Assembly: GCA_021399445.1 (NCBI GenBank)
Contig: JAJTUQ010000005.1
Span: 4,898,001 to 4,962,000, forward strand
Direction of reading: 5' to 3'
DNA length: 64,000 nucleotides
Source: Xylogone sp. PMI_703
Taxonomy: Eukaryota; Ascomycota; Leotiomycetes
The translations under genes and the position numbers were made by a program. Position 1 is the first letter of the stretch. The number at the start of each line of letters is the position of its first letter. The notes beneath the pieces are model-generated. The model was not told the origin of the DNA. It saw only the letters and a program-made list of their open reading frames with translations, and ran no database searches. This document shows, piece by piece, positions 29,528 through 33,357 of the stretch.

Positions 29528-29777
29528 GAGCTCGGCGATTGTGGATCGTGCGTGCTGCGCTATATTATTGGTCCACGGTAGTGTCCCTGGTTAGTCATCC
29601 GCGCCAGGCTCTGAACTTATCTAAAGCCTCATCTCCCGAAACATCGCCTCTCGAAAGACATACGACATTGCCCCCATTTTACGTTTGCTCATTCGTCACC
29701 TCCTCTTGATATTACAACAGGGAATTTGTTTGTGTTAATATAGTCTCTCCAACTGCTTAAATCTTCTCCAACTCAAC
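29528..29777. promoter_or_regulatory. Bidirectional promoter between Cdc16 and Yju2
   Basis: The two start codons face away from each other across only 250 bp, so both genes must share this promoter. A CCAAT box (as ATTGG on the + strand) lies at 29567-29571. Co-expression is inference. Confidence 0.55.
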
Positions 29778-30766
29778 ATGTCCGAGAGAAAGGTTGGTCC
29801 CTTCTATTTTGAGATTATGATTTTAATCTGGCTTCTAACTGTAAAACAGGTCCTGCAGAAGTACTTTCCGCCCGATTTTGACCCCTCCAAAATCGTGAGG
29901 AGTCGAGCTCCAAAACAAGCCGGCCCAAAAGTTCAAACCGTCCGTTTGATGGCACCGTTCCCGATGAAATGTACCTCATGCGGAGAATATATATACAAGG
30001 GTCGGAAATTTAATGCGCGGAAGGAAACGACAGATGAGAAGTACTACGCGATCAGTATTTTTAGGTTCTATATCCGATGTACAAGATGTTCTAGTGAAAT
30101 TGTAAGTACACATACATACTTTCGATTACATTCATTTGCTTGCGATTGTGTTTTATGGAGGGCCTGGTTGGCTACAGTTTGCGTTTTATTGTCGGCCTTG
30201 CTAACTGAAAGCCAATTTAGACGTTCAAGACGGACCCCAAAAATATGGACTATGTGTGCGAAAGAGGAGCTAAGAGGAACACCGAACCATGGAGAATGAA
30301 TGGTGGTGGGGTTCAGGAGACCGATGAAGAAAGGTTAGACAGATTAGAAAGGGAGGAAGAGGAGAAGAACGCAATGCAGGAGCTGGAGACAAAAACCCTT
30401 GAAGCGAAAACAGAGATGGCTGTTGCGGATGCTTTGGATGAAATACGAACAAGGAACGCTCGTAACGAAAGGGTTGGCAAAGATGGCTTAGAAGTGACTG
30501 TTGCCCGGGAAGCCATTGATGCAGAGCGAGAGAGGCAAGAGAAGGAAGACGAAGAGGCTGCTAGGCGGGCATTTATGAAGAAGTACGAGGCTATGGAGGA
30601 CATAATCCTTGAAGAGGATGAAGATACTGGAGAGGCTGGTCCGTCAAAAGTTGTCACGAAAGAACCCGCTTCAGAACCACCAGCGCCTAGTTTCAAGCGG
30701 ATTGTGAAAAAGAAGAAAGATTATGCTGGAGCTTTGGGTATCAAAAAGAAGCCATCTTTAGTTTGA
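29778..30766 (+). CDS. yju2: Yju2/Cwf16 step-one splicing factor
   Basis: Binds the catalytic spliceosome and supports branching. Exons 29778-29792, 29850-30101 and 30221-30766 give 270 aa. The first exon codes just MSERK, and splicing yields [20 protein letters not shown], the universal Yju2 start. The zinc-binding pair is C-T-S-C ([13 protein letters not shown]) and C-T-R-C ([11 protein letters not shown]), followed by [20 protein letters not shown], all family hallmarks. The C-terminal half is a long charged coiled coil ([17 protein letters not shown]...) ending with a Lys-rich tail ([19 protein letters not shown]). Intron 2 is 119 nt with branch GCTAACT. It shares its promoter with Cdc16. 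Confidence 0.95.
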
Positions 30767-32430: not shown

Positions 32431-33357
32431 TCAGCAGCTAGTAACTAGGTTATACCTTTTCACACCTGCCACATCGTAACGAATCAAGGGATCAGAGTCC
32501 TCACTGCCGGCCACCACATCGGTATTCTGCAATCAGGCTTTTCATCAACCGGGGAAGCCACTTACGGGCTATAATTGGCGACCACATTAGTATACGCTGC
32601 CAGCAATCAAGCCCTTCATCAATAGGGGAAGCCACTTACACACTAGAATTGGTAATTATATTAGTATACATTACCGGCAATTAAGCCATTCATCAATAGG
32701 GGAAAACTTACAGGCTGAAATTAACAACTATGTTAGTATACTCTACCAGCAACCAAGCTATTCATCAATAGGGGGAAACTTACAGGCTAAAAGTTGCAAA
32801 CCACGTTAGTATACGCTGCCAGCAATCAGGCATTTCTTCAATCGAGGAAGCCACTTACTTGCTAGAGATGCCAGTCATATTAGTATACGCTGCCAGCAAT
32901 CAGGCACTTCATTAATCGGGAAAGCCACTTACACCCTAGAATTCGCAACCACGTCAGTATACACTGCTAGCAATCAAGCCCTTCGTCAGTCGAGGAAGCC
33001 ACTTACAGGCTAGAATTAGAAGACTACGTTAGTATATACTGCTAGCAATCAAGCCCTTCGTCAATCAAGGAAGCTACTTACAGGCTAGAATTAGAAACTG
33101 TGTTAGTAATACACTACCAGCAATTAACACTTCGTCAATTAATGAAGCCGCTTACACACTAGAATTGGCAACCATATTAGTATACTACTACCCGAAAATC
33201 TTAAAATAGTAAAAGGGAAAGATAATAAACTTTATTAAAGTTGGTCTCAAGAAGTCTTTACTGTCTCACTTACATCCTCTGGAATTTTTGGTTCTTTCAC
33301 GACCATGCCCGTAGCTGCTCCGGCAAAGAGAGTGATAATGGTAACGGAGATCTTCAT
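32431..33357 (-). CDS. Candidate secreted-peptide gene built of nine single-codon (3-nt) exons
   Basis: Exon 1 (33274-33357) codes 28 residues starting MKISVTIITLFAGAATG, a good signal peptide, and ends E-D|GTAAGT in phase 0. Then come nine places where a YAG acceptor and a GTAAG donor are separated by exactly three bases: 33156-33158, 33082-33084, 33007-33009, 32933-32935, 32859-32861, 32784-32786, 32712-32714, 32640-32642 and 32566-32568. As codons these read Cys, Pro, Pro, Gly, Gln, Pro, Pro, Cys, Pro. The introns between them are 69-72 nt, each with TACTRAY about 17 nt before the acceptor. The end is uncertain: acceptor 32527 (39-nt intron) opens a 31-residue acidic last exon to the stop at 32431, while acceptor 32504 gives an immediate stop. 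I know no described family. Splicing is inferred from sequence signals only. Confidence 0.55.
32513..33190. repeat. Tandem array, about nine units of about 74 bp
   Basis: The landmark TTAGTATAC (+ strand) recurs at 32587, 32661, 32733, 32806, 32880, 32954 (as TCAGTATAC), 33029 and 33177, with a variant at 33103, i.e. every 72-75 bp. Units share a CCAGCAATCAAG...CTTCATCAAT core and CACTTAC...CTAGAATT. On the minus strand each unit equals one intron plus a three-base exon of the candidate gene described at 32431-33357. Units have diverged by substitutions and small indels, so the array is not a recent expansion. Confidence 0.9.

Follow-up and report, generated by a model that had tools for sequence, protein, structure and literature searches.

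The window, which is the whole 64,000-nucleotide stretch of DNA analysed here, carries on its minus strand a candidate gene that would comprise a short first exon, nine internal exons of one codon each, and a short last exon (Table 1). Exon 1 is an ATG open reading frame of 28 codons with a hydrophobic start, and it ends in phase 0 at GTAAGT, much as a preliminary description of this DNA had proposed; that it is signal-like is a call made by a crude hydropathy test. The same description had reported nine minus-strand sites at which an AG acceptor and a GTAAG donor lie exactly three bases apart, and every one of them is present with that spacing (9/9). The codons between are, in order, TGT CCT CCT GGT CAA CCT CCT TGT CCC, which would be translated as CPPGQPPCP. 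The introns that precede these codons are 115, 71, 72, 71, 71, 72, 69, 69 and 71 nt in length, such that the range of 69-72 nt given earlier holds for the eight introns between microexons but not for the first.

A TACTRAY branch site, as also described before, is found in each of these nine introns, and its branch A precedes the exon by 19-20 nt. In three of the nine an extra AG follows just past the branch A, 15-16 nt before the exon (13-14 nt upstream of the acceptor). A G at the -1 exonic base favours U1 pairing; this base is T in seven of the nine window codons and in nine of the 11 codons of a second array, on contig C25.

The tenth and last intron of the window gene has no TACTRAY. Its acceptor is ambiguous and so is the gene's end, given that the three likeliest acceptors would define an intron of 39, 62 or 66 nt. 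Two of these lead to a tail that reaches 32431, and the third leads to an immediate TGA. Depending on the acceptor, the conceptual product would have 37 residues and end with CPPGQPPCP, or would have 59 or 68 residues and a KR-bearing tail. The cysteines on either side of PPGQPP might invite a disulphide loop. A gene for a Saf4/Yju2 splicing factor lies at 29739-30766 of the window (first exon matched), about 2 kb from the array, which is probably a coincidence.

Table 1. Features of the candidate gene and its array in the window
Feature	Positions	Strand	Description
Exon 1	33274..33357	-	ATG to phase-0 donor; MKISVTIITLFAGAATGMVVKEPKIPED; signal-peptide-like; hydrophobic 11-aa mean 2.14
Intron 1, 115 nt	33159..33273	-	GTAAGT...TACTAAT...CTAG
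Microexon 1, TGT (Cys)	33156..33158	-	AG-NNN-GTAAG site
Microexon 2, CCT (Pro)	33082..33084	-	AG-NNN-GTAAG site
Microexon 3, CCT (Pro)	33007..33009	-	AG-NNN-GTAAG site
Microexon 4, GGT (Gly)	32933..32935	-	AG-NNN-GTAAG site
Microexon 5, CAA (Gln)	32859..32861	-	AG-NNN-GTAAG site
Microexon 6, CCT (Pro)	32784..32786	-	AG-NNN-GTAAG site
Microexon 7, CCT (Pro)	32712..32714	-	AG-NNN-GTAAG site
Microexon 8, TGT (Cys)	32640..32642	-	AG-NNN-GTAAG site
Microexon 9, CCC (Pro)	32566..32568	-	AG-NNN-GTAAG site
Tandem array of intron-plus-codon units	32529..33185	-	~74-nt unit, 8.9 copies, 77% matches (Tandem Repeats Finder)
Last intron option, 39 nt (short)	32527..32565	-	acceptor TTGCAG; tail 32526-32431, 31 codons and stop
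Last intron option, 62 nt	32504..32565	-	acceptor CCGGCAG; degenerate branch TACCGAT; TGA at 32503-32501
Last intron option, 66 nt		-	acceptor GTGAG, 4 bases past CCGGCAG; tail 32499-32431
Possible last exon	32431..32526	-	NTDVVAGSEDSDPLIRYDVAGVKRYNLVTSC and stop; open in phase 0; contains KR dibasic

Other codon arrays in the genome

A search for similar arrays in this genome, as the preliminary description had suggested, yielded a second, apparently intact gene on C25 and a relic on contig C5. On C25 (L018), 11 serial single-codon sites, AAT CCT CAA GTT GAT CCT TCT GAA TTT TTT TTT, which would read NPQVDPSEFFF, follow a hydrophobic ATG exon, MHAQIFLSFLIVAMAMAATAAALPTSKRPQSLKER, whose phase-0 donor is GTAAGT. 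The last exon, APNYEESNSEDSATP, is in frame through to a stop codon, for a conceptual product of 61 aa. The donors are GTAAG at nine of 12 sites, GTACG at two and GTATG at one; YTRAY is found 19-25 nt upstream in 11/11 introns, and a second AG is found 3-4 nt before the acceptor in two of the 11. To judge by these features, C25 appears to carry a second gene of the same design. Protein searches returned no homologous protein for either conceptual peptide, and no Pfam domain scored above the cut-off in the window product with its longest tail (68 aa) or the 61-aa C25 product, with one match, at E 0.14, below it. Upstream of the C25 gene, at a distance of about 1 kb, L018:1-2700 is very AT-rich and by eye looks like a product of repeat-induced point mutation.

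The C5 array has five codon sites (QAGCG), and a sixth shows, by eye, TAAGT in place of the expected GTAAGT. YTRAY is present in four of its five introns. The array follows a stretch that resembles a transposase-like ORF (by eye), and the last 53 bases of the C5 query stretch recur at two other places. In short, the C5 array looks like a decayed relic. It shares with C25 a 3' flank of 42 nt at 83% identity (blastn E 3e-7).

The whole 50-Mb genome was scanned for two successive AG-NNN-GTAAG-type sites, with the reversed pattern as a control. At a spacing of three bases the scan gave 15 matches (seven in the window, four on C25, three on C5 and one on C23), 14 of them inside the three arrays, versus two for the reversed control; at a spacing of two, there were no matches genome-wide for either the pattern or its reverse. 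The match on C23 was rejected as a codon array, given that its letters are those of a GTAGGGCCTGAGCCT-type minisatellite repeat. Relaxation of the donor to GTANG produced 124 matches versus 51 in the reversed control and was uninformative; among the GTANG matches listed, most are the GTAGGGCCTGAGCCT-type minisatellite. The three arrays of the strict scan are therefore a minimum, the relaxed-donor survey having been swamped by this minisatellite. Several copies of the minisatellite are headed by GTAAGCGAAGCC, and among the matches listed it occurs on contigs C1, C12, C19, C20, C21 and C23, among others. DNA searches with the three arrays and the C25 3' flank as queries found only self-matches and, for the end of the C5 query, two short repeats, and such searches are insensitive, as they missed the kinship of C5 and C25 that blastn detects.

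First exons of the kind seen in the window were also sought near GTAAG sites in general. Six of 187 GTAAG sites, including all three array starts (3/3), are preceded by an ATG exon that has 22-50 codons, begins with a hydrophobic stretch and ends in phase 0; the threshold for the hydrophobic stretch was chosen after sight of the sequence, and the case on C5, where the exon overlaps a repeat unit, is doubtful. The 187 sites come from about 94 kb, made up of the window, L017, L018 and L019, with the C23 region included as background only.

Column conservation and kinship of the arrays

The nine sites of the window are tandem copies, and therefore the number of sites alone is no evidence. Instead, alignment columns were compared within each array by column permutation, using eight units from the window (the first intron was left out), 10 of the 11 units from C25 and four from C5. 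In the window, pairwise diversity is nil across the five donor and the two acceptor columns and averages 0.26 in the 64 other columns (p 0.0018); in two units the aligner opened a gap within the donor, though all units carry GTAAG. For C25, at a mean identity of 63%, diversity is 0.10 in the donor and 0 in the acceptor versus 0.39 elsewhere (p 0.0002), and in C5 the donor and acceptor columns again show less diversity than columns drawn at random (p 0.015). Fisher combination of the window and C25 gives 5.7e-6 for the splice columns. By this measure the copies have retained their splice signals better than neutral repeats would.

Diversity is higher in the codon columns than in the remaining non-signal columns, with p values of 0.044 in the window, 0.036 in C25 and 0.062 in C5, and a Fisher combination of 0.012 for the window and C25. 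This excess is weak and may be inflated, since the codon columns were anchored and closed to gaps, which the aligner was free to open within introns. The first two positions of the codon vary more than position 3 in the window and in C25 but not in C5. The anatomy of the arrays is genuine rather than a product of chance, and the genome contains it more than once.

Kinship of the arrays was assessed with a profile built on the interiors of the C25 and C5 units, with the splice ends removed. This profile has 17 matches in its own arrays, mostly to the units used for training (15 at E <=2e-4 and two at 0.04-0.05), and its best match to the window array has an E of only 14. The idea that all three arrays form one detectable family was rejected, given that the C25/C5 interior profile does not recover the window units. 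A further profile, R1, was trained on all three arrays, such that its matches are no evidence of kinship. The design of single-codon exons would thus appear to occur on two intron units without detectable similarity. Alternatively, the window and C25 units could be members of one family too far diverged to be recognised, and the case for independence would then be weaker.

Probable stepwise splicing and its alternatives

The likeliest reading of this anatomy, and a probable one, is that of serial single-codon exons in a tiny gene for a secreted peptide. In this the preliminary description appears to have been right, and the reading is strengthened by the second gene on C25, with its dissimilar introns, and by the pattern of conservation. 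Weighing against it are the ambiguous acceptor and poor branch site of the last window intron, the extra AGs close to some acceptors, the T that mostly occupies the -1 exonic base, the weakness of the codon-column excess, and the protein searches that gave no homologue of either conceptual peptide. Once transcribed, exon 1 would give a signal peptide and a short linker, each intron-plus-codon unit would add one residue (CPPGQPPCP with all nine used), and a short last exon would end the peptide. An exon of 3 nt leaves no room for both splice-site complexes simultaneously. Since the acceptor and the donor of such an exon cannot both be bound, splicing would most likely be stepwise: the removal of each intron would join one codon to the growing exon, and the GTAAG next to that codon would become the next donor. 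The result would be a ratchet that resembles recursive splicing, but with one codon gained per step. The sequence permits donor regeneration, a feature of recursive splicing, at every site. The array could grow, shrink and mix by unequal exchange between units, and the gain or loss of a unit, or the skipping of an exon, would leave the frame intact. The peptide itself would probably be secreted and fast-varying, and act as a ligand, an antimicrobial or an interaction peptide.

How many of the exons would be used in any one transcript is where a neighbouring reading differs. The codons could be alternatively included, such that nine cassettes would encode up to 512 peptides and the 11 of C25 up to 2048. 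Every subset of codons keeps the frame, and the idea is the same as the alternative splicing cited for truffle 3-bp mini-exons; the donors and branch sites of the window are uniformly strong, however, which suggests efficient use rather than weak cassettes. Such a library is possible but doubtful, and it overlaps with stepwise splicing of all the codons, so the likelihoods given to the two are not exclusive. Similarly tentative, and somewhat unlikely, is the broader proposal that intron-plus-codon units are a repeatedly evolved device for hypervariable secreted peptides, a splicing-encoded library drawn from at least two unrelated arrays. In such a device, unequal exchange would alter single residues without damage to the frame, and alternative splicing would generate hundreds of in-frame peptides.

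The internal sites might instead be relays, decoys or rare alternatives within one composite intron, with exon 1 joined straight to the last exon and the codons mostly omitted. The frame would survive the skipping of all units in C25, and also in the window gene if either of two among the three likeliest acceptors is used, and conservation of the splice signals alone would fit relay sites. Pure relays, however, would have no need of a spacing of exactly three bases, which is seen in 9/9 and 11/11 cases, given that a spacing of zero or some other number would serve, and it is the codon columns that vary; a composite intron is decidedly unlikely. That the region is a tandem repeat, and that neither conceptual peptide has a protein homologue among those searched, would suit a plain non-coding minisatellite whose founding unit carried intron-like signals by chance. 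This is an improbable account of arrays in which the splice columns are selectively conserved, the same architecture recurs on the dissimilar repeat of C25, a phase-0 signal-like exon precedes both the window and C25 arrays, and a spacing of two yields no matches. Introner-like elements, inserted serially with a short exonic spacer left by each, would account for similar introns in tandem and for the likeness of the C25 and C5 units at two loci. The spacer codons differ among units, unlike target-site duplications, and pattern and DNA searches, both insensitive, found units only in these arrays and no solitary intron copies, which makes such elements highly improbable here.

Two other readings were rejected. 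A coding repeat on either strand does not fit unit lengths of 72-75 nt, which keep no frame, though three plus-strand ORFs (79, 72 and 67 aa) run across the array. Nor is a structured RNA indicated: 19 of the 20 shuffled sequences fold as well or better (z +2.0), and Rfam gives no match up to E 1.

Comparison with known microexon genes

Serial 3-nt exons have been described in truffles. The NACHT-ANK genes of Tuber melanosporum are said to contain tens or dozens of codon-sized (3-bp) mini-exons that are alternatively spliced (Iotti et al. 2012, as cited in PMC3689799, PMC4986451 and PMC9815663). The preliminary description had stated that it knew of no fungal gene built from serial 3-nt exons, and this claim to novelty does not stand. 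The arrays described here are like the truffle genes as cited in that serial codon-sized exons occur in an ascomycete gene and stay in frame whatever is included. They differ in that the truffle genes are large, NLR-like receptor genes bearing ankyrin repeats, whereas the genes here are tiny, with a signal-like first exon, in a Leotiomycetes-like fungus; by Pfam, the window and C25 products contain no NACHT or ankyrin domain. The C25 gene has as its downstream neighbour a separate ORF with HET and ankyrin-repeat sequence (L018:5453-7483), which begins some 600 nt away and has its likely ATG at about 750 nt. This neighbour is suggestive beside the truffle NACHT-ankyrin mini-exon genes, and it may be there by chance.

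Other filamentous ascomycetes are also reported to have microexons. The two copies of lipS in Dactylellina haptotyla are described with two 3-nt exons (PMC5639578), and Trichoderma Xlr2 has a microexon of 20 nt (PMC11121469); unlike the arrays, these are one or two exons in ordinary genes. The schistosome MEG genes are reported to encode secreted proteins with an N-terminal signal peptide and to have exons of 3-81 bp, of varied size, and introns of up to 5 kb (PMC10526429). The window and C25 genes are similar to these in that a phase-0 first exon, signal-like by crude hydropathy, precedes frame-preserving microexons, and differ from the MEG genes in that the internal exons are all 3 nt and the introns are tandem copies of about 70 nt. 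Aphid bicycle genes, which are insect genes, are reported to evolve rapidly and to encode putative plant gall effectors recognised by their gene structure (PMC9168663). Unlike the MEG and bicycle families, the present arrays are in a fungal host, with a Leotiomycetes-like genome, and searches gave no homologues of either conceptual peptide. The closest named match to the YIH1/IMPACT homologue of this genome is from the Leotiomycete Scytalidium lignicola, at 83% identity over 82% of the query.

In plants, exons of 1 nt have been verified, and the 1-nt exon of VPS55 is flanked by GTRAGT donors (PMC8831610); in recursive splicing, a regenerated donor can be reused (PMC6224609). Such cases are single events in conserved genes, in contrast to the arrays found here. 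By title and the start of the abstract, among the matches listed, no report was found of a small secreted-peptide gene with 3-nt exons in series, in a literature from which subscription journals were mostly outside scope. Serial 3-nt exons being already known in truffles, what would be new here, as an unproven reading of the DNA, is a set of tiny secreted-peptide genes made of such exons in a Leotiomycetes-like fungus, and the window array connects with the truffle mini-exons as these are cited.

If all nine exons are used, the window gene would combine extreme exon size with extreme exon density in a tiny gene, and would offer a direct test of the spliceosome on consecutive 3-nt exons. It could also represent a route by which a peptide evolves residue by residue. 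Standard gene finders and read aligners could then miss a class of fungal secreted-peptide genes.

A different kind of candidate peptide gene lies some 105 kb away from the codon array on C5. At L025:1244-1732 (C5:335743-336231), an open frame begins with a signal-like sequence, MKFTYTVAFCATLLGVISSATP, and contains a partial repeat followed by four near-perfect repeats of 25 aa, each ending in NKR (five NKR in total). The frame resembles the kexin-processed repeat precursors of fungal peptides.
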